DNA from: Nocardia asteroides
GTDB taxonomy: Bacteria > Actinomycetota > Actinomycetes > Mycobacteriales > Mycobacteriaceae
DNA: 64,000 nt
NCBI GenBank assembly: GCA_019930625.1
Contig: CP082844.1
Coordinates: 7,130,001 to 7,194,000 of the forward strand
Direction of reading: 5' to 3'
In this document: positions 52,523-64,000 of the stretch, piece by piece
Layout: each line of letters opens with the position of its first letter
Position numbering within the stretch: position 1 is the stretch's first letter
The notes under the pieces: model-generated
Told to the model about the DNA's origin: nothing
Databases searched by the model: none
What the model saw: the letters and a program-made list of their open reading frames with translations, nothing else
Translations under genes and position numbers: made by a program

Positions 52523-53641
52523 GTGACCTCAGTCGACACCCCGACACCACACAACGCGGCCACGGCAGCCGAACCTGCTGCGGCACTCCCGGGTCCCGCC
52601 GTGGCTACGCAGGCCACCTCCTCCGGGCCCGACGCTCGCGCCGCGAACGGCCGCAAGCTCCTGCGCATCGAAGCCCGCAACGCGGAAACCCCCATCGAGC
52701 GCAAGCCCAAGTGGATCCGTACCCGCGCCACCATGGGCCCGGAGTACTCCGAGCTCAAAGGCTTGGTCAAGCGCGAGGGCCTGCACACCGTCTGCGAGGA
52801 AGCGGGCTGCCCCAACATCTTCGAATGCTGGGAAGACCGCGAGGCCACGTTCCTGATCGGCGGCGAACAGTGCACCCGCCGCTGCGACTTCTGCCAGATC
52901 GACACCGGCAAGCCCGCCGCCCTGGACCGCGACGAGCCCCGCCGCGTCGCCGAAAGCGTCCAGGCCATGGGCCTGCGCTACTCCACCATCACCGGCGTGG
53001 CCCGCGACGACCTGGACGACGGCGGCGCCTGGCTCTACGCCGAAACCGTCCGCGCCATCAAGCGTTCGAATCCCCACACCGGCGTGGAGCTGTTGATTCC
53101 CGACTTCAACGCCGACCCCGACCAGCTCGCCGAGGTGTTCTCCTCGCGCCCGGAAGTGCTGGCGCACAACCTCGAAACGGTCCCCCGCATCTTCAAACGC
53201 ATCCGCCCGGCCTTCCGCTACGAGCGCTCCCTCGCGGTCCTGACCGCCGCCCGCGAAGCCGGTCTGGTCACCAAATCCAACCTCATCCTCGGCATGGGCG
53301 AAACGCCGGAGGAAGTCACCCAGGCCATGCGCGACCTGCACGAGGCAGGCTGCGACATCCTCACCATCACCCAGTACCTGCGCCCGTCCCCGCGTCACCA
53401 CCCCGTCGACCGCTGGGTGAAGCCGGAGGAATTCGTGGAGCACTCGAAGGCGGCCGAGGAAATGGGCTTCGCAGGCGTGATGGCCGGTCCCCTGGTCCGC
53501 TCCTCCTACCGGGCGGGTCGGCTGTACGCCCAGGCGATGGCGCATCACGGTCGCGAAATCGCGCCGGAGATGGCACATCTCGCCGAGGAAGGCACAGCGT
53601 CGCAGGAAGCCAGCTCCGTGCTGGCCCGCTTCGGCAGCTGA
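52523..53641 (+). CDS. lipA: Lipoyl synthase (radical SAM)
   Basis: 372 residues. Inserts two sulfurs into octanoyl groups on lipoyl domains. The auxiliary [4Fe-4S] cysteines are in [12 protein letters not shown], the radical-SAM cluster in CTRRCDFCQ, and the conserved C-terminal RSSYRAG closes the protein. N-terminal Ala/Pro-rich extension of about 35 residues. It functions with lipB and supplies SucB and GcvH. A second, diverged 116-bp copy of its 3' end lies at 56178-56293, marking an insertion downstream. Confidence 0.95.
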
Positions 53642-53699: not shown

Positions 53700-54601
53700 T
53701 TACATCTCGCCTGCGAGCGTCATACCGAGTTCGGTCTCCTCGACGACCCCTCGCTCGATCAAATTGTCGAGATCTGCGGTCAACGTCGCCCGAATATCTG
53801 ATCGAACACGTGTCCAGCCGAAAACAGCGGCCACCTCGGACAGGAGTTCTTCGCGCCGAACTCCCAGACAGTCGGCGATGACGTTGCGTATGGCAAGCTG
53901 TCGCTCAATTATCGGTATCTGCCGGACCAAGCGGCCGCCGCGGGAAGCCGCTGTCCGCACAGACTGCAGCTCACGAGCAGGCAAATCGTATGCAGCGCCG
54001 AGACGGACAACTGCCTCTTTCCTATCGAGCCAACGCAGAACTTCCCGGATCCGCACTTGGATGACCGGACCCGACCTACCTACGCCCCAGGCCGTTCGCA
54101 CACGTGTGAATAACAGCTCCTCCTCAACCGGCCGGCGTTGGATATAGCGCATCGCTGCGCTTCGCGCACCTTGTCACGTCTCGCGAAGAACTCCCGCAGC
54201 AGATCCGCCACGACCCGGACCGCCGCGCCGACCGCTTCGACCGCACCCGACTGCGTCAGCCACTGTTCCAGCGACCTATGTGAAACATCGGCCAATGCAA
54301 TCACTCGGCAGACATCGCGCGCAGTGGCTAGTGTCCGCGGTCTATCGAGACCGAGTTCATCTGCGATCTCGATAGCTGCTCGATAGGTGGACTCCAGCTG
54401 ATTTGCTGCAGCCTTGAAGTCCCGGCTGATCCGCCTCGCGGCAGACTCAGTCCAATTCCCAGGATCGAGTCCGGGCGGCGACAGCTCGGCCAGCGACTGT
54501 TCCGCATCGCTGATCTCCGCAGTAAGCCGTGTCGACATCTCGTACCAATGCTTGCCTGCGACCTCTTCCGCCGCAGCCTGGGCGCGTCGCACCAATCGCA
54601 A
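53700..54601 (-). pseudogene. Broken DUF3320-type (DUF4011 helicase family) gene remnant
   Basis: Two overlapping minus-strand frames, 54080-54601 and 53700-54152. The second has a DUF3320-like end: RPVEEELLFTRVRTAWGVGR and, later, LGVRREELLSEVAAVFGWTR with IRATLTADLDNLIERGVVEE, the repeated pattern at the C-terminus of very large DUF4011/DUF3320 helicases often found in defence islands. The first (EEVAGKHWYEMSTRLTAEIS and onward) looks like an internal helical segment. The frame changes near 54150, and everything else of the about 1500-residue protein is missing, so this is a deleted, frameshifted remnant. Family call moderate; decay fairly sure. Confidence 0.55.
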
Positions 54602-54972
54602 GTCGGCAACGAAGGTTTTCTGCCCGAGGGCATTTCGTTACCTCCGATCAGTCACGGACGCCGGCAATGCTCCGACGCCTGATCGACCAATGTCCGCAAA
54701 GCGCTCCGCTAGACCGAACGTTGAAGTACATGGCCAGGCCCGGTTCGATGCGCAAGTCAACAGGCATCGAGGCGATCGCCGCCATCCAGATCCCTGCGGG
54801 CTCGAACACCGTCACGCAGGAGGACTACCAACCCGCCCGCGACGCCTTCCTGAGCGTCGCGCAGCTCCTTGTAAGCCACTTAATCTAAAGCAATGCTTCT
54901 GCTATTATACTTTTCGCAGTATTAGATATAGTAAAGTTAGATTTGGTTGCACTTTCGTCCAGAGGAGACGCC
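54602..54972. other. Gap with AT-rich promoter before the Fic gene
   Basis: 371 bp. The right part (about 54880-54955) is strikingly AT-rich for this genome, with several TATAAT-like hexamers (TATTATACT, AGATATAGT), and probably holds the Fic promoter. The left part contains a possible gene fragment at 54730-54888. Confidence 0.5.
54730..54888 (+). pseudogene. Possible gene fragment (52 codons)
   Basis: Frame from ATG 54730 to TAA 54888 encoding a peptide with a protein-like stretch, STGIEAIAAIQIPAGSNTVT followed by QEDYQPARDAFLSVAQLLVS. No ribosome-binding site. It may be the C-terminal scrap of a gene lost during rearrangement of this island, or chance. Confidence 0.25.
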
Positions 54973-56160
54973 ATGGGCTGGCCGCCGCACCGCACCGAGA
55001 GCCGCCCCTGGCACCCTCGCCACCGCCAGGGGTCGCGCGCCGACCGAACTCTCACCGAGATCGAAGTCTCGATACCACCCCGGATCGCCGATCTCACGTA
55101 CTCGGTCGGGGGCACCGTCGCACGAGCGCACGAGGACGCCGTGATCGCGGTCGTTCGCCTCGAGGCGGGCTACGGTCAACATCTGGCGCCGTTGGCCGAC
55201 TTCTTGCTCCGTAGCGAATCCGTGGCGTCATCGAAGATCGAGCACATCGACGCGGGCTGGCGAGCATTCGGCCGAGCCGTCGCCGGCGGAAAGGCGAGCG
55301 AGGAGGCGAAGTCACAGCTGGCTGCGGTACGAACGTTGGCCGCACTGGTCACCGCGGCCGGCGATGGTCCGATCACACTTGCCTCCTTGCTCGAGGCACA
55401 CCGTCTGCTGATGGCTCCCGATTACTACACCGCGCAGGACTCGGGCAGGCTGCGGACGGTGCAGAACTGGATCGGAGGCAGCGACTACACACCGATCGAC
55501 GCGCTGTTCGTTCCGCCCCCGCCGGAGCTCGTCACGGAACTGATGGACGATTTGGTCACTTTTGTCGGCCGTAGCGATCTGCCGATCCTTGCGCAGGCCG
55601 CTATCGCGCACGCCCAGTTCGAATCCATCCATCCGTTCACCGATGGCAACGGCCGGATCGGGCGTGCCCTCATCAGCGCGATCCTCCGCCGCCGCGGGCT
55701 GACTCAGCGGGTTACGGTTCCGTTGGCCTCAGCGATGCTCGCCGACACCGGCCGCTACTTCGCGCAACTGAACGGCTATCGCGAAGGGCACGTCGACGAG
55801 TTCGTCGAGTACGTCTCCACGGCGACGATTCATTCCTGTGAGGCCGCCCAAGAATCGGCCCGTGCGCTCGCCGATCTCCCAGCCCGGTGGCGCGCAATCG
55901 CCAGACCACGAGCGAATTCCGCCGACGAATCAGTACTGGCAGCCTTGCTCGACACACCGATATTCAACGCCGACACCGCGCAGAAGATGACCGGCACTAC
56001 CGAAGCCAGCGTGTATCGGGCCCTCGGCAGGCTGACGGAAGCCGGTGTCCTCGAGGTGCTGTCGGAGAACAAGCGCAATCGCATCTGGGCGGCATCCGAC
56101 GTCCTGGCCGAACTCGACGCACTCTCCGCCGCCATCGGCAAACGAACCACGCGGATATAG
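54973..56160 (+). CDS. Fic/DOC-family protein (probable AMPylase), class II-like
   Basis: 395 residues. The active-site motif HPFTDGNGRIGR is at residues 220-231. An N-terminal alpha-helix contains SSKIEH at about 86-91, matching the inhibitory S/T-x3-E-[G/N] motif except that His replaces Gly/Asn; the inhibitory Glu90 is kept. The C-terminal about 80 residues form a winged-helix domain (FNADTAQKMTGTTEASVYRALGRLTEAGVL). Such Fic-wHTH proteins transfer AMP to protein targets and are common in toxin or defence loci. ATG 54973 follows AGAGGAG. It lies inside the segment bounded by the two lipA 3' ends. Confidence 0.9.
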   Translation: MGWPPHRTESRPWHPRHRQGSRADRTLTEIEVSIPPRIADLTYSVGGTVARAHEDAVIAVVRLEAGYGQHLAPLADFLLRSESVASSKIEHIDAGWRAFGRAVAGGKASEEAKSQLAAVRTLAALVTAAGDGPITLASLLEAHRLLMAPDYYTAQDSGRLRTVQNWIGGSDYTPIDALFVPPPPELVTELMDDLVTFVGRSDLPILAQAAIAHAQFESIHPFTDGNGRIGRALISAILRRRGLTQRVTVPLASAMLADTGRYFAQLNGYREGHVDEFVEYVSTATIHSCEAAQESARALADLPARWRAIARPRANSADESVLAALLDTPIFNADTAQKMTGTTEASVYRALGRLTEAGVLEVLSENKRNRIWAASDVLAELDALSAAIGKRTTRI

Positions 56161-56585: not shown

Positions 56586-59500
56586 GTGGACGCATTCGGT
56601 GTGCTCGACAGGATTCTCGATGACTACCAGGCTTTCGTCTCCGGCTTCCTGAACATCAGGGACGCGGAGGTCAAGCACAAGGTCGAGACGGAGATTGCCA
56701 ACGGGCTGTTGTGGCCAGAACCCTGGCTGGCGCTGAATCCGGCGTTCGAACCGGGCGGAACTGTCTCCGAGCTCGTCGACCACGACCTACTACACCCGGG
56801 CGCACGCGAAATTTTTCGCATCAGGACCGAGGAGGATCGGTTCGGGCGCGAGATTCCATTCCACCGGCACCAGACCGACGCGTTCGCCGTCGCCCGTCGC
56901 GGCGAATCGTATGTGCTCACCACCGGCACTGGTTCCGGCAAGTCGATGTCCTACATCGTGCCGATCGTAGACCGGGTGCTGCGGGACGGTTCCGGTCATG
57001 GGATCAGGGCGATCGTCGTGTATCCGATGAATGCCCTTGCGAACAGTCAGCTCGGTGAGCTGGAGAAGTTCCTCGGCCGCGATAACCCGGAGGTCACCTT
57101 CGGTCGTTACACCGGCCAGGAAACCCGCGCGGAGCGCGACGACATGTTGCAGAACCCGCCGGACATCCTGTTGACGAACTACGTGATGCTCGAGTTGCTG
57201 CTCATCAGGCCCCGGGAACGGACGGGGCTGATCGCAAGCGCGGCGGATCTGGCCTTCCTGGTGCTCGATGAGCTGCACACATATCGGGGTCGTCAAGGTG
57301 CCGATGTGGCTATGCTCATACGACGATTGCGGGGAGCGGTAGGGGGACGACGGCTACAGTGCATCGGCACGAGCGCCACGCTCGCGGGTCCTGGAACGAG
57401 AGCCGAGCAGCGTCACCAGGTCGCTGAACTGGCTACTCGGATCTTCGGTACCCGGATTCCCGCGCACAACGTCATCGGCGAGACTCTGCGCCGCGCGACA
57501 TCGGGCGAGGTCGACACTCCAGCGTTGTCTGCTCGGCTCCACGCACCGACGCCGTCGACGTGGGAGGAGCTGCACTGTGACCCGCTGTCGGTCTGGACCG
57601 AACGGACCTTCGGACTGCGCGAGGACGAAGGCGAACTCGTTCGGCAGGTTCCGACTCGACTCAGGACTGCCGCCGAGAAGCTGGCAGAACAGACCGGAGC
57701 CGACCAAGGCATCTGCGAGCAGAAGCTGCGCGAACTGCTGCTCGCAGGCTCCAGGGCGCGCGACGACAAGGGCCGCCCGCTGTTCGCGTTCAAGTTGCAC
57801 CAATTCATCGGCAAAGGCGACACCGCATACGCGACCCTCGAGCCGCCCGGAAACCGCTATCTGACTACCCAGTATCAGCGCAGCTCTCCCGTGGGCGCGA
57901 AGGGACAACCCCTGTTTCCCCTCGCGTTCTGCCGCGAATGCGGCCAGGACTATCTCGTCGTCAGTCTTGACAGTGGCGCGGAAAAGTTCAGTCCTCGAAT
58001 CCTCAGCGGTGGTCGTGGGGAGCAGGCAGAGGCGACCGGTCTGTTATTCCTCACAGACCAGCCGTGGCCTGCGGCGAACGACCCGGCCATTGCCGATTTC
58101 GTGCCCGATGATTGGGTGGTCGAGTCCGGCAGCCACCGCGTGCTCGACAAAGCAAGGCGAAACCGGTTGCCCGAGATCTATCGGGTCGATTCCTTCGGCA
58201 CGATCACCGACGACGGCCTTCCCGTCGCCTTCTTTGAGACGCTGCATTTCTGCCCCACCTGCAAGACCAGCTACGAAAGCGCCCAGCAGTCCGAATTCTC
58301 GCGGGTCGCGAGCCTGGGCACGGAAGGACGTGCCAGCGCGGTCACCGTGTTGTCGCAGGCAGTCGTGCGTACGTTGCGCACAGGGGAGGATCTCGACGCG
58401 GATGCCCGCAAGTTTCTGGCCTTCTCCGACAACCGGCAAGATGCCAGCCTGCAAGCGGGTCATTTCAACGATTTCGTTCTCGTCGGCCTGGTGCGCTCCG
58501 CCCTCTATCGCGCCGCTCTCACCCAACAGGAAAGGCAGGCCGACGAGCCTCTGACCGACGAGAACCTCGGATCGCGAGTGGTCGCCGCGCTCGGTGGCGA
58601 GCCCGCCGACTTCGCCAAGGACGCGTCCACTGCGAATGAGCGAATCCCGCGCACCAGGATCACTCGCGCATTACGCGACGCCGTCACCTATCGTCTGTGG
58701 GCCGACCTGAAGCGTGGTTGGCGAATTACCATGCCCAACCTGGAGCAGACGGGGCAGTTGCGGCTGACCTACTTCGGCCTCGAGGAACTCGCCGAAGACG
58801 ATTCGGTGTGGGCGGCTTGCGGCGAGCCGCTTGCCGGTGCGGAACCGTCGACGCGCCATCAACTGATGCAAGTTCTGCTCGATGAACTGCGCCGCAAGCT
58901 GTGCATCGAATCGGAGTTCCTCACCGAGGAGAAGTACGACAGCATCAAGCGCGCCAGTCAGGAGTGGCTCCGCGCGCCATGGGCGTTGTCCGACGAGACC
59001 GGTGTGTACGCGGGCACCGCCTACCCCGGAAGCCGTCCGAAATTCGAACCCGGCTCCGGAGCCGACCACTACCTGTCCGGGCTCGGCGCGTATGGACGCT
59101 GGCTGCGCCGACCCGACCGCTTCCCGCTGTATGATCATCCGCTCAAACCCGCCGACGCGGACATCGTCATCGAGTCGCTGCTGAAAGTCATGGCTCGTGA
59201 GGGCGTTCTCGCCAGAATCGAGGAGCGCAACCGTCGCACCGGATACCGAATCCGCGCCGATCTCATCGAGTGGCGCGCGGGCTCAGGGGAATTCCGGGTG
59301 CCTGATCCGATCCGCGGGAACCAAGTCGAGGGGCGTGTCAACCCGTTCTTCCGCCGCTTCTACGCCGAAACCGCCGCGCGGCTGGTCGGGCTGGAAGCTC
59401 GTGAGCACACCGCCCAGGTGGACTCGATCAAGCGTAAAGAGCGTGAAAAGTTGTTCGGGGCGGCGAAGCTGCCGGTTTTGTACTGCTCGCCCACTATGGA

Positions 59501-61730
59501 ACTCGGCGTAGACATCAAAAGCCTCAATGTCGTCGGTATGCGCAACGTTCCCCCTACCCCGGCGAACTATGCTCAACGTTCCGGGCGCGCTGGACGATCC
59601 GGCCAGCCCGCTGTCGTGCTGACCTACTGCGCCACCGGAAATGCCCACGACGCTTATTACTTCGGACGCAGCCAGGACATGGTCGCCGGAGCGGTCGCGC
59701 CACCGCGGCTCGAGCTCGGGAACCAGGACCTCGTACGCGCCCATGCGCACTCGATCTGGCTGGTGATCTGCGATCTCGACCTCAAAGCCAGCATGGTGGA
59801 TCTCCTCGAGATCGACGAACCAGGCCAGCCGCTGCGCGCTGAGGTGCGTGCGGCCATCGAATCTCCGGCCAATCGAGCGCGTGCTGTGCGCGCGATCGCC
59901 GCGGTCCTCGAGACAACCGAGGAAGTCACCTGGGCGGAGTGGTGGACCGACAGGTGGGTTGCCGACACGGTGGACAACGCAGCTCGGCGATTCGATATGG
60001 CCGCCGACAGGTGGCGCGACCTCTACCGAGAAGCACTGGTGGAACTCGATGCCGCCAATGACGTCCTCAAAACGATCGGCGCGTCCGAGGCCGACAAACG
60101 TCAAGCGCGAGGTCGCATTTCGGAGGCTCGCGCGGCGCTGGACCTGCTGCGGGGGCAAGTCGACGACATCGCCCAGGGGGATTTCTATCCCTACCGGTAT
60201 TTCGCCTCCGAGGGATTCCTGCCCGGCTACTCGTTCCCGCGACTTCCCTTGGCCGCTTTCATTCCGGCGGAGCGACGCACCAGGAACGGCCAAGGCGACT
60301 ATGTCCAACGGCCGAGATTCCTCGCGATCAGCGAGTTCGGTCCCGGCGCCTTCATTTACCACGAAGGCGCCCGCTACGAAGTGAACCGGGTGAGTCTGCC
60401 GGCGCGTGAAGACGGCACCGGAGTGAACATCACAGAGATCAAACGCTGCAATGCTTGCGGCTACTTACATGAGATGAACGGCCCGACCAGTGTGGAGATC
60501 TGCGACCACTGCGGCGCGGATTCGCTCGAAACCCTCGACCGGATGATGCGCCTGATTTCGGTCAAGACTCGTCGCCGTGACCGCATCAGCGCCGACGAGG
60601 ACGAGCGCCAGCGCGCCGGTCATGAAGTGGTCACGACCCTGCGGTTCGTCCCACACGGTGAGCGCGCCGGGCAGCTCACCAGCACAGTGCTTGTCGACGG
60701 CGCCACCGTGGGCACCATGACCTATGGCGACACCGCATTGATCCGGCGGATGAACATCGGGCTGCGTCGCCGCAAGGACAAACACATCAAGGGGTATCTA
60801 CTCGACACTCTGGAAGGCCGGTGGGCGCGGGAAGCGGACCTCGGCAAGAACACCGATGGTGAGGTGCCACGGATCCGGCGGGTCGTGCCCTATGTGGAGG
60901 ACCACCGCAATGCACTGGTGCTGCACCTCGACCCGGCCATCCCGAACGACGTGCGAGTGGCGGCCATGTATGCCCTCAAACGCGCCATCGAAGCCGTTTA
61001 CCAACTCGAGAGCAACGAACTGGCAGCCGAGCCCCTGCCTGGCGGCACCGGCGATCATGCCTGGTCCCGTCTGCTGTTCTTCGAGGCCGCCGAGGGCGGA
61101 GCCGGAGTACTGCGCCGGCTGGCGACAGAGGACGGGCATATCCGTGAGGTGGCCCGCAAAGCACTCGAGATCCTGCATTTCGACCCTGATACCGGAGCCG
61201 ACCTCGGCCACGCCGAGCACGCCGCGGAGGACTGCGCCCAAGCGTGCTACGACTGTCTGCTGTCCTACAGCAACCAATGGGATCACCAGCGGCTCGACCG
61301 GCACTGTGTCACGGAGCTGTTGCGGGATCTGATGCGCGCCGACATCGAGGTCGGCGCGGGCGGGGAAGATCGTGCCGCGCAATTGCGACGTCTCGCGGCG
61401 CAGAGCAACACCCTCGAGCGACGGTTGCTCGCGCTGCTCGACGAGCATGGCTATCGGCTCCCGGATGCGGCCCAGCAACTTGTCGAGGGCTACTACGTTC
61501 GCCCCGACTTCGCGTTTCATACCAGCAGCGCGGATGTCGCGGTGTTCATCGACGGACCTGTGCACGATTCGGCGCATCGAGCCGAGAAGGATACGCAGGC
61601 CCGGACGAAGCTCGTTGATGAAGCCGGGTGGATGGTTTTGCGGTTCCGTTACACAGACGACGATGCCGAATGGCTCCAGACCATCAAGGACAATCCTGAC
61701 GTGTTCGGTACCGGAAGGGTCGGCGCGTGA
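56586..61730 (+). CDS. Giant DEAD/DEAH helicase with DUF1998 and Vsr/DUF559-like nuclease tail
   Basis: 1714 residues. RecA1: Walker A TGTGSGKSMSY (about 113-123), NYVMLELLL, and DELHTYRGRQGADV (about 228). RecA2 comes only after a roughly 700-residue insertion: YCSPTMELGVDIKS (about 965) and YAQRSGRAGRSGQ (about 994). Metal knuckles: CRECG, CPTC, CNACG with CDHCG, and CAQACYDCLLSYSNQ in the DUF1998 region (about 1500-1575). The tail (about 1610-1705), RPDFAF, VAVFIDGPVHDS and KLVDEAGWMVLRFRY, resembles Vsr/DUF559 nucleases. Helicase-DUF1998 pairs occur in DISARM (DrmA plus DrmB) and Druantia (DruE). GTG 56586 is six bases after GGGGAAGG; the frame is open upstream to 56463. Overlaps the next gene (GTGA). 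Confidence 0.85.
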   Translation: MDAFGVLDRILDDYQAFVSGFLNIRDAEVKHKVETEIANGLLWPEPWLALNPAFEPGGTVSELVDHDLLHPGAREIFRIRTEEDRFGREIPFHRHQTDAFAVARRGESYVLTTGTGSGKSMSYIVPIVDRVLRDGSGHGIRAIVVYPMNALANSQLGELEKFLGRDNPEVTFGRYTGQETRAERDDMLQNPPDILLTNYVMLELLLIRPRERTGLIASAADLAFLVLDELHTYRGRQGADVAMLIRRLRGAVGGRRLQCIGTSATLAGPGTRAEQRHQVAELATRIFGTRIPAHNVIGETLRRATSGEVDTPALSARLHAPTPSTWEELHCDPLSVWTERTFGLREDEGELVRQVPTRLRTAAEKLAEQTGADQGICEQKLRELLLAGSRARDDKGRPLFAFKLHQFIGKGDTAYATLEPPGNRYLTTQYQRSSPVGAKGQPLFPLAFCRECGQDYLVVSLDSGAEKFSPRILSGGRGEQAEATGLLFLTDQPWPAANDPAIADFVPDDWVVESGSHRVLDKARRNRLPEIYRVDSFGTITDDGLPVAFFETLHFCPTCKTSYESAQQSEFSRVASLGTEGRASAVTVLSQAVVRTLRTGEDLDADARKFLAFSDNRQDASLQAGHFNDFVLVGLVRSALYRAALTQQERQADEPLTDENLGSRVVAALGGEPADFAKDASTANERIPRTRITRALRDAVTYRLWADLKRGWRITMPNLEQTGQLRLTYFGLEELAEDDSVWAACGEPLAGAEPSTRHQLMQVLLDELRRKLCIESEFLTEEKYDSIKRASQEWLRAPWALSDETGVYAGTAYPGSRPKFEPGSGADHYLSGLGAYGRWLRRPDRFPLYDHPLKPADADIVIESLLKVMAREGVLARIEERNRRTGYRIRADLIEWRAGSGEFRVPDPIRGNQVEGRVNPFFRRFYAETAARLVGLEAREHTAQVDSIKRKEREKLFGAAKLPVLYCSPTMELGVDIKSLNVVGMRNVPPTPANYAQRSGRAGRSGQPAVVLTYCATGNAHDAYYFGRSQDMVAGAVAPPRLELGNQDLVRAHAHSIWLVICDLDLKASMVDLLEIDEPGQPLRAEVRAAIESPANRARAVRAIAAVLETTEEVTWAEWWTDRWVADTVDNAARRFDMAADRWRDLYREALVELDAANDVLKTIGASEADKRQARGRISEARAALDLLRGQVDDIAQGDFYPYRYFASEGFLPGYSFPRLPLAAFIPAERRTRNGQGDYVQRPRFLAISEFGPGAFIYHEGARYEVNRVSLPAREDGTGVNITEIKRCNACGYLHEMNGPTSVEICDHCGADSLETLDRMMRLISVKTRRRDRISADEDERQRAGHEVVTTLRFVPHGERAGQLTSTVLVDGATVGTMTYGDTALIRRMNIGLRRRKDKHIKGYLLDTLEGRWAREADLGKNTDGEVPRIRRVVPYVEDHRNALVLHLDPAIPNDVRVAAMYALKRAIEAVYQLESNELAAEPLPGGTGDHAWSRLLFFEAAEGGAGVLRRLATEDGHIREVARKALEILHFDPDTGADLGHAEHAAEDCAQACYDCLLSYSNQWDHQRLDRHCVTELLRDLMRADIEVGAGGEDRAAQLRRLAAQSNTLERRLLALLDEHGYRLPDAAQQLVEGYYVRPDFAFHTSSADVAVFIDGPVHDSAHRAEKDTQARTKLVDEAGWMVLRFRYTDDDAEWLQTIKDNPDVFGTGRVGA

Positions 61731-64000
61731 CCACCACTGAATTTCCGCCCGGCGCTTTGGTACACGCGCGCGGCAGGGACTGGCTCGTACTCCCCGGCGG
61801 TCCCGAAGGGCTGGTGCTTGCCCGCCCCCTTGGCGGCCGGGAGGACGAAACCACAGTCCTACTACCAGAATTCGACGTCCCGGCCCTCGCCACGTTCCCC
61901 CCGCCGAAGGTCGGCGACCGGGGTGACGCCGCCCGGGCTCGGCTGTTGCGTGACGCCCTGCGCCTGTCCTTCCGGGCCACCGGCGGACCGTTTCGCTCCT
62001 TTGCGAACTTGGCGGTGACGCCGCGGAATTACCAGCTGGATCCGCTCATCATGGCCACCGCGCAGGACACCACCCGACTGCTCATCGCCGACGGTGTCGG
62101 CGTAGGCAAGACAGTCGAAGCGGGTCTGATCGCCGCCGAACTGCTCGCCACCGGGGACGCGCAACGCCTGGCCGTGCTGTGCTCGCCGCAACTCGCACCG
62201 CAGTGGCAAGCCGAGCTGCGCGGCAAGTTCGGCATCGAGGCACAACTGTTGCTGCCGTCGACGGTGAACCGGCTGAAGGTCCCCTGGGGCTCCACCATCT
62301 ATGAGCACTACCCCTACCTGGTGGTCTCCACCGACTTCATCAAGCAGCGCAGCCGACGCGACGAATTCGTGCTCCACTGCCCCGAACTCGTCATCGTGGA
62401 TGAAGCGCACACAGCGGTGGCCGCCGGCACTGTCGGCAACACACAGGCGCATTTGCGTTACACCGTGCTGCGCAAGATCGCCGACGATCCGGCCCGGCAT
62501 CTTCTGCTGCTCACGGCCACCCCGCACAGCGGCGACGATCATGCCTGGCAGTCGCTTATCGGACTACTAGATCCCCGGCTCGCGCAGCTTCCGGCCGATT
62601 TGTCCGGGCGAGACCGGGAGGAGGACCGCAAGCTACTGGCGAAGTTCATGATCCAACGCCAGCGCGGCGACGTCCGCAAGTATGTCGACGGTGAAAACAC
62701 CCCGTTCCCGAAGCGCGAATCCACTGAACTCAGCTACACGCTCGCCCCCGCCTACCGCGCCCTGTTCGATGACGTCATGGCGTTCGCGCGCCAGCAGGTA
62801 AGCGATCCGGGGCTGAACACGGTGCGGCAACGAGTGCGGTGGTGGTCGGCGATCGCGCTACTGCGCTGTCTCGCGTCGAGTCCTGCCGCGGCGGAGCAAA
62901 CATTGCTCAAGCGCTCAGCGCTCGCGTCCGTCGACAAAGCGGACGACGCCGATGCCCTGGCCGTCCCACGGGTGCTCGATGGCGACTTGGACGAAGCGCT
63001 GGAAGGCGAGGACGCCGCGCTCGGCGCCGACACCACCGATCCCGATGCGCCGGACCGTTCGACACGTCGCCGACTGCGCGAGCTCGCGGCCGCCGCCGCG
63101 GCGCTGAAAGGTCCGGCAGCGGACGCGAAGCTGGGACGGCTGATACCTATACTTCGGGATCTGATCGAAGACGGCTATCACCCGATCGTGTTCTGCCGCT
63201 ATATCCCTACCGCCGAATACCTCGCCGACCACCTGCGCACCGCGCTTTCCAAGAAACATCGCGACCTGCGTGTCGAAGCGGTCACCGGCCTTCTTCCCCC
63301 GGAGGAGCGAGAGGACCGGATCGCGGGATTGACCGAGCACGACGGTGCGCGGCTGCTCGTCGCGACGGACTGTCTGTCGGAAGGCATCAACCTCCAGGAC
63401 GGCTTCACCGCGGTCGTGCACTATGACCTTGCCTGGAACCCGACCCGTCATGAGCAGCGCGAGGGTCGCGTCGACCGGTTCGGCCAACGCGCGGGCACCG
63501 TCCGCACCGTCACCTACTACGGCGAGGACAACGGCATCGACGGCGTTGTCCTCCAGGTGCTGATCCGGCGGCATGAGAACATTCGGCGCAGCACCGGGAT
63601 CTCGGTACCGGTCCCGGTCGACTCGACCACCGTGATGAAAGCGATCTGGGAGTCGTTGTTGTTGCGGGGCACCGCCACCGACCAACTCGCCTTGGACTTC
63701 GGCGGTGCGACCTCCGATTCGCTGGCCGCCGCGGTGGATGTGCGGTGGAGCGACGCCGCGCAGCGCGAGAAAGCCTCCCGCTCACGGTTCCGCCAGGTCG
63801 GACTGCCCCGTGAGGAGGTCGTCGACGTCCTCACCGCGGTACGGCGCTCGCTGGGCGGCCCCGCCGACGCCGAAACCTTCACCCGCGATGCCTTGTCTTT
63901 GTTGTCCGCGCAGATCAGCCCCACCGACGAGGGATTCACCGCTCGTATCGACACACTGCCGCCCGCGGTGCGTGATCAGCTTCCTCCGGTCAAGGATCAC
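61727..64000 (+). CDS. SNF2/RapA-type helicase, DISARM DrmD-like (partial, runs off the window)
   Basis: The first 758 codons are present. An N-terminal beta-rich segment (about 1-60) precedes the SNF2 core: Q-like YQLDPLIM, Walker A DGVGVGKTVEAGL, CSPQLAPQWQ, DEAH, LLTATPHSGDD, then after an acidic insertion (about 410-450) the C-terminal lobe with IVFCRYIPTAEYLADHL, ATDCLSEGINLQDG and HEQREGRVDRFGQ. This is the layout of HepA/RapA relatives such as DrmD of class 1 DISARM. GTG 61727 overlaps the giant helicase stop by 4 bp, so the two are translationally coupled. The C-terminus and any methyltransferase partner lie beyond the edge. Confidence 0.85.
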   Translation, partial: MTTTEFPPGALVHARGRDWLVLPGGPEGLVLARPLGGREDETTVLLPEFDVPALATFPPPKVGDRGDAARARLLRDALRLSFRATGGPFRSFANLAVTPRNYQLDPLIMATAQDTTRLLIADGVGVGKTVEAGLIAAELLATGDAQRLAVLCSPQLAPQWQAELRGKFGIEAQLLLPSTVNRLKVPWGSTIYEHYPYLVVSTDFIKQRSRRDEFVLHCPELVIVDEAHTAVAAGTVGNTQAHLRYTVLRKIADDPARHLLLLTATPHSGDDHAWQSLIGLLDPRLAQLPADLSGRDREEDRKLLAKFMIQRQRGDVRKYVDGENTPFPKRESTELSYTLAPAYRALFDDVMAFARQQVSDPGLNTVRQRVRWWSAIALLRCLASSPAAAEQTLLKRSALASVDKADDADALAVPRVLDGDLDEALEGEDAALGADTTDPDAPDRSTRRRLRELAAAAAALKGPAADAKLGRLIPILRDLIEDGYHPIVFCRYIPTAEYLADHLRTALSKKHRDLRVEAVTGLLPPEEREDRIAGLTEHDGARLLVATDCLSEGINLQDGFTAVVHYDLAWNPTRHEQREGRVDRFGQRAGTVRTVTYYGEDNGIDGVVLQVLIRRHENIRRSTGISVPVPVDSTTVMKAIWESLLLRGTATDQLALDFGGATSDSLAAAVDVRWSDAAQREKASRSRFRQVGLPREEVVDVLTAVRRSLGGPADAETFTRDALSLLSAQISPTDEGFTARIDTLPPAVRDQLPPVKDH

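Follow-up and report, generated by a model that had tools for sequence, protein, structure and literature searches.

A three-gene operon of Nocardia asteroides that probably encodes a chromosomal ARMADA Type I system

What kind of system is encoded by an operon in which a giant helicase, a DUF1998 domain and a nuclease are joined in one protein? We addressed this question for the end of a 64,000-nucleotide stretch of the 7.4 Mb Nocardia asteroides genome (contig CP082844.1, C1:7130001-7194000; hereafter the window), where a sequence-only reading had seen a hybrid arrangement that fits no named system. Extension past position 64000, which that reading had called for, revealed a methyltransferase gene at extrapolated positions 64588-68667; it had been missed because it lies beyond the window. 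The operon comprises three genes on one strand, encoding a giant helicase–nuclease, a SNF2/RapA ATPase and an adenine methyltransferase. In gene content and in the order of genes and domains, the operon agrees with ARMADA Type I in the accessible text of the preprint by Bell et al. 2025 (PMC12458937), so a named system does fit. We assign the operon, with a probability of roughly 85%, to a chromosomal and apparently intact ARMADA Type I; this assignment was made against the description in the preprint, whose Type I reference protein is WP_108720193.1. According to that text, Type I consists of a YprA homologue, a BrxHII-like helicase and a PglX-like methylase in this order, its YprA protein ends C-terminally in a Vsr-type nuclease that is predicted to be active, and it is the more widely distributed ARMADA form, common in Actinomycetota (PMC12458937). 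The features of the operon, in window coordinates, are:

56586..61730, plus strand: P0001, gene 1, YprA/DUF1998-family helicase–nuclease of 1,714 amino acids (open reading frame, Pfam, motifs, MrfA-like fold)
56865..57386, plus strand: DEAD helicase domain (RecA1), residues 94-267 (Pfam PF00270, 87 bits)
59388..59603, plus strand: Helicase_C domain (RecA2), residues 935-1006 (Pfam PF00271, 45 bits)
60447..60512, plus strand: CxxC...CxxC pair of the OB-fold region, residues 1288-1309, putatively a zinc-binding insert (14 aligned proteins all share its four cysteines)
60966..61259, plus strand: MZB/DUF1998 zinc-binding domain, residues 1461-1558 (Pfam PF09369, 35.5 bits)
61407..61709, plus strand: Vsr/EDxHD-like nuclease domain, residues 1608-1708
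61727..61730, plus strand: overlap of genes 1 and 2, 4 base pairs (bp), GTGA
61727..64000 (window end; extrapolated end 64591), plus strand: P0002, gene 2, BrxHII/DrmD-like SNF2/RapA ATPase of 954 amino acids
64588-68667 (extrapolated, wholly outside the window), plus strand: P0003, gene 3, PglX/Eco57I-like adenine methyltransferase of 1,359 amino acids

The open reading frames and the GTGA at 61727 bore out the 1,714-residue helicase (56586-61730) and the 4 bp that it shares with the following frame, and the junction between genes 2 and 3 is also a 4-bp GTGA overlap. All three frames are full length, all catalytic motifs checked in P0001, P0002 and P0003 are intact, and in each of the three genes the GC content is highest at the third codon position, as in coding DNA. 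The frame of P0001 opens at GTG; an ATG/GTG-GAC-GC start occurs at the aligned position, derived from match starts, in 10/10 members of its clade (window counted), which supports the GTG start without proving it.

The union of helicase, DUF1998 and nuclease in one chain, as previously claimed, was recovered by Pfam, with DEAD (94-267), Helicase_C (935-1006), MZB (1461-1558) and DUF559 (1598-1689) all above cut-off. The helicase motifs are GTGSGKS at 114, DELH at 228 and QRSGRAGR at 997. Structure models of P0001 match the folds of MrfA, DrmB and I-Bth0305I, with MrfA as the best match, and support its description as a predicted MrfA-like helicase followed by a Vsr/EDxHD-like nuclease; Pfam gave no PLD domain match in P0001, where the Vsr-like fold takes its place. 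Across 58 aligned helicases (window counted), K119, D228, E229, R1001 and R1004 are kept in every sequence, the zinc cysteines C1550, C1554 and C1557 in 57, and the nuclease residues D1641 and D1656 in 57 and 54, respectively. The OB-region insert holds one CxxC pair, at 1288/1306. In the models, residues 311-390 are helical, CxxC occurs at 449 and at 556, and residues 1141-1188 form long helices; by position these stretches fit further elements of ARMADA I, namely a BrxA-like helical domain behind RecA1, two inserts in RecA2 (a zinc beta-barrel and a MarR-like one) and a coiled-coil finger behind RecA2, with no BrxA or MarR fold match, and neither a BrxA nor a MarR chain was among the matches listed in fold searches with the N-terminal P0001 model. 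In PADLOC, P0001 best matches the DruE profiles (340 bits). The same Nocardia genome encodes elsewhere a separate YprA-like helicase of ~820 residues.

P0002 carries the motifs GVGKT at 125, DEAH at 225 and QREGRVDR at 577. It had been called DrmD-like, which stands as a resemblance and fails as membership because its score against the NCBIfam DISARM_DrmD profile is 289 bits with a cut-off of 610. The NCBIfam DpdE profile gives 168 bits (cut-off 500) and DpdJ 65 bits (cut-off 800). The PADLOC profile PDLC02853, named DpdE, spans the full length of P0002 with 868 bits; since the curated NCBIfam DpdE profile fails on the same protein, this name is probably a misassignment. P0003 is an Eco57I/N6-type methylase by Pfam, with motif I (DPACGSG) at 526 and NPPW at 803, and these motifs are kept in 52/53 and 53/53 of the methylases compared. 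Its best PADLOC match is DrmMI (163 bits). The automated names of the trio mislead, the top PADLOC 2.0.0 profiles being DruE, DpdE and DrmMI.

Relatives were collected as the best 80 of at least 579 confirmed stretches, 52 of the 80 being Actinomycetota by record name. Conserved co-occurrence, which the sequence-only reading had proposed to look for, was found: 62/80 loci have helicase, ATPase and methylase in this order on one strand. The remaining 18 comprise 6 in which helicase and ATPase run until the DNA ends, 10 with <600 bases downstream and 2 without partners. In 42/68 loci the helicase and ATPase genes overlap by the 4 bp NTGA. Two loci show other layouts: in L108, one of the 10 with <600 bases downstream, ATPase and methylase are divergent from the helicase, and on a Thermus plasmid (L135) they precede it. 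A candidate family that may be McrB-like lies downstream of the methylase in 14/80 loci; an McrB gene follows ARMADA I in D. radiodurans MP1 (L133), and the Nocardioides plasmid pNOCA01 (L140) has DISARM and McrBC genes next to its ARMADA I. In the locus L002, Rfam gave nothing at gathering score.

The closest named helicase relative by identity, among the matches listed, is from Nocardia sp. alder85J (81%). Within the genus, 5/118 genomes hold a strong helicase relative (>600 bits), one of them split over two contigs; helicase relatives occur in 23/246 genomes of the class at E<=1e-150 and in 23/396 of the phylum at E<=1e-100. Matches to 80% or more of the helicase length occur in 71/72,556 plasmid records, and close trios with helicases 76-82% identical are carried by two Rhodococcus plasmids, the second of which has its ATPase annotated in two pieces. 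Phages contributed 2/50,697 matching records, both weak and partial; a further 6 loci lie on viral contigs, and tblastn finds the complete trio in 2 of these. Ten clade members, including the 81% relative, were aligned, and the DNA that precedes the start codon showed no evident similarity, which fits a cassette transferred as a unit; judged from these alignments, the trio may have moved as one piece.

In a FastTree phylogeny of 68 hand-picked rows of 98 (1,458 columns), the window helicase groups with proteins from Nocardia, Rhodococcus and Mycobacteriaceae (support 1.0). It clusters with relatives that carry the same trio; the deep branches of this tree are unreliable.

The helicase family also contains a form with a protein kinase at its N terminus. 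An N-terminal extension of at least ~330 residues, in frame with the helicase, occurs in 22/80 relatives, and Pfam Pkinase matches all 22; the Hanks-type Ser/Thr kinase domain is complete, with the catalytic lysine, HRD and DFG invariant in the alignment. The kinase-fused loci are:

L051, L059, L062-L065, L072, L074, L076, L081, L082, L084, L085, L087
L090-L092, L095, L098, L099, L101, L107

By record name 21 of these are actinomycetes, and the last belongs to a metagenome bin labelled Melainabacteria. In the tree, the 15 kinase-fused rows and the kinase-less L104 make up a single clade (support 1.0); in the first 16,000 bases of L104, tblastn gave no kinase match at E<=1e-3. The window helicase lacks the extension. 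Of 25 match rows in the class sample, 8 contain an open frame that reaches 2,080 residues or more, a length that would fit the fusion. The word kinase does not occur in the main text of PMC12458937, and literature searches, whose reach ended short of supplements, found no description of a kinase–helicase fusion. We lean towards a family with two regulatory forms, a plain one, as in the window, and a kinase-fused one in one actinomycete branch, in which phosphorylation would perhaps switch the helicase–nuclease as a sensor or safety catch. By analogy, the fused form may recall the PglW kinase of BREX-2. This branch offers a testable idea of how such helicase–nucleases may be restrained.

The operon lies in the 64.4 kb that separate lipA (end at 53641) from a DUF4191 gene (to extrapolated 118032). 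Six other Nocardia genomes, of nine searched, have both genes on one contig, and there the gap, taken from contig positions, is about 2.6, 10.4, 14.5, 23.4, 32.3 and 58.7 kb, so the interval is variable. DUF4191 is inverted relative to lipA in 5/7 Nocardia genomes (window counted). The interval looks like an insertion hot spot, and the operon sits there in a defence island with PDC-M02 and Wadjet:

53700-54152, minus strand: DUF3320 C-terminal fragment (PF11784, 31 bits, cut-off 25; PDC-S37 positions 1408-1541 of 1550)
54943-56160: Fic gene, 405 amino acids, full length by profile (SoFic positions 24-358 of 361)
68882-70668 (extrapolated): PDC-M02A (DUF4365) and PDC-M02B, immediately behind the trio, both candidate defence genes
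79319-87452 (extrapolated), minus strand: four-gene Wadjet (full-length JetA 864, JetB 427, JetC 1356 and JetD 438 bits)

Fic and DUF3320 had both been taken for remnants; the DUF3320 stretch is a true fragment, and the Fic gene is full length. Neither Fic nor PDC-M02 was retained as a component of the operon: Fic had no match among open reading frames of at least 90 amino acids in any of the 80 loci, and PDC-M02 no match >60 bits in frames >150 amino acids, many of these loci having little flank.

How might such an operon act? The PglX-like enzyme would mark self DNA by methylating an adenine within a sequence motif of the host, the BrxHII-like ATPase could move along or remodel incoming DNA, the YprA-like helicase would load on unmarked phage DNA with an exposed single strand, and the Vsr-like domain would cut the loaded DNA so that the host survives, a direct and not an abortive defence. 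We infer all these enzymatic activities in Nocardia, and likewise that methylation protects and what sets off the attack. Related systems provide the background: in the accessible text of the preprint, ARMADA Type II in E. coli is anti-phage and non-abortive and needs all four genes and most of the catalytic motifs tested (PMC12458937), and the related DruE, in the accessible text on that protein, loads on 3′ single-stranded DNA and cuts DNA without strong sequence preference (PMC13192584).

The assignment to ARMADA Type I and the proposed sequence of events have to be weighed against several points. The function of the operon is extrapolated, the experiments described in the accessible text of PMC12458937 concerning Type II. 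The self-marking step is insecure because, according to the same text, the S-adenosylmethionine-binding mutant G605A of ARMADA II loses only part of its activity, whereas the NPPW mutant loses all of it. Fold searches did not confirm the BrxA-like insert of P0001, and two loci, L045 and L086, lack the partners although 6.3 and 1.6 kb of DNA follow the helicase. In the tree, a DISARM row (branch 4.16) falls inside the Type I-like rows and the Type II helicase ArmC falls outside DruE, and this deep branching contradicts the arrangement in the accessible text of the preprint; we take these odd deep placements for a probable long-branch artefact. The partial effect of G605A next to the total effect of the NPPW mutation would also agree with a different logic of the same system, in which the PglX-like protein would serve mainly in DNA recognition or assembly, and in which the architecture of the DNA (replication forms that are single-stranded or branched), rather than missing methylation, would signal the infection, as has been suggested for Druantia III. 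Recognition of a 3′ single strand by DruE, without strong sequence preference, points the same way; the intact and nearly invariant DPACGSG and NPPW motifs of P0003, as in a working methyltransferase, argue against a structural role, and we regard this logic as possible but rather unlikely.

Readings that take the operon out of ARMADA Type I altogether fare worse. Since MrfA is the best fold match of P0001 and acts in DNA repair (PMC12458937, in its accessible text), the trio could be a repair or housekeeping helicase set of MrfA/YprA type without a defence role, which is barely credible for genes that are patchily present (5/118 genomes in the genus, 23/246 in the class), sit beside Wadjet and PDC-M02 in a variable island, occur also on plasmids and share the genome with another YprA-like helicase. 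That the operon is a decaying relic which no longer works is suggested by the broken DUF3320 gene upstream, a sign that the island holds broken genes; three full-length frames, two 4-bp overlaps, intact motifs and the third-position GC pattern make this very improbable. It is about as improbable that the operon is a variant of DISARM or Druantia III with no class of its own. The DruE and DrmMI profiles and the DrmD-like ATPase speak for such a variant; the fusion of helicase and DUF1998, the DrmD score below cut-off, a nuclease that is Vsr-like and not PLD, and the lack of a neighbouring DruH speak against it, as does pNOCA01, where Type I and DISARM are separate gene sets side by side.

The Nocardia operon is, on the preferred assignment to ARMADA Type I, a compact and intact three-gene example of a kind already named. 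It is a practical system in which to find out if three genes suffice for Type I in the absence of ArmD, and if self DNA is marked by methylation. Its interest is moderate because the experiments in the accessible text of PMC12458937 concern Type II, and because of the kinase-fused relatives.

Comparison with the known systems places the operon as follows. DISARM was rejected because separate drmA and drmB genes are absent, helicase and DUF1998 forming a single 1,714-residue protein, and because the DrmD match stays below the curated cut-off; a DrmC PLD nuclease was not found in PADLOC and Pfam scans of the neighbouring open reading frames (the neighbourhood, not the whole genome). The DISARM set of pNOCA01, annotated drmD, methyltransferase, drmA and drmB, stands apart from the ARMADA I-like trio of that plasmid; the window proteins score 52 bits against its DrmD and 83 bits against its methylase, and for its DrmA and DrmB no match was listed at E<=10 in direct comparison. 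Druantia III shares the DruE profiles that top the PADLOC matches of the window helicase; it was rejected since the genes flanking the trio are Fic and PDC-M02A, with no DruH, and since P0001 has a Vsr-like nuclease in contrast to the two C-terminal PLD-like domains of DruE (accessible text of PMC12458937). It differs too in that the window helicase is accompanied by an ATPase and a methylase. The earlier view of a defence-type operon fitting neither DISARM nor Druantia is upheld on these grounds: fused helicase and DUF1998, no DruH neighbour and a Vsr-like nuclease. Dpd was rejected on the NCBIfam scores of DpdE (168 versus 500) and DpdJ (65 versus 800).

ARMADA Type II has homologues of three of its four proteins in the window operon and differs in its order, which in the accessible text of the preprint is ATPase, methylase, helicase and ArmD, a GajB-like helicase with a RelE domain. 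No GajB-like ArmD was found beside the window trio, where PDC-M02A and PDC-M02B come next. The window proteins score 165, 138 and 115 bits against an E. coli plasmid set that has the Type II gene order and is called ARMADA II from this order and its product names. That E. coli set adjoins genes resembling Druantia III and Zorya II. Against the trio of pNOCA01, direct comparison gave 1502, 904 and 1229 bits. From ARMADA Type I, as described in the accessible text of the preprint, no differing feature was found, and the likeness extends to the same three-gene order in one operon, with both junctions as 4-bp overlaps, to the Vsr-type nuclease fused at the helicase C terminus, and to an undivided YprA helicase with an OB-CON-DUF1998 module and one cysteine-rich OB insert. 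The authors of the preprint regard ARMADA as a ‘missing link’ between DISARM and Druantia (PMC12458937, accessible text), and the hybrid seen by the sequence-only reading came close to this description.

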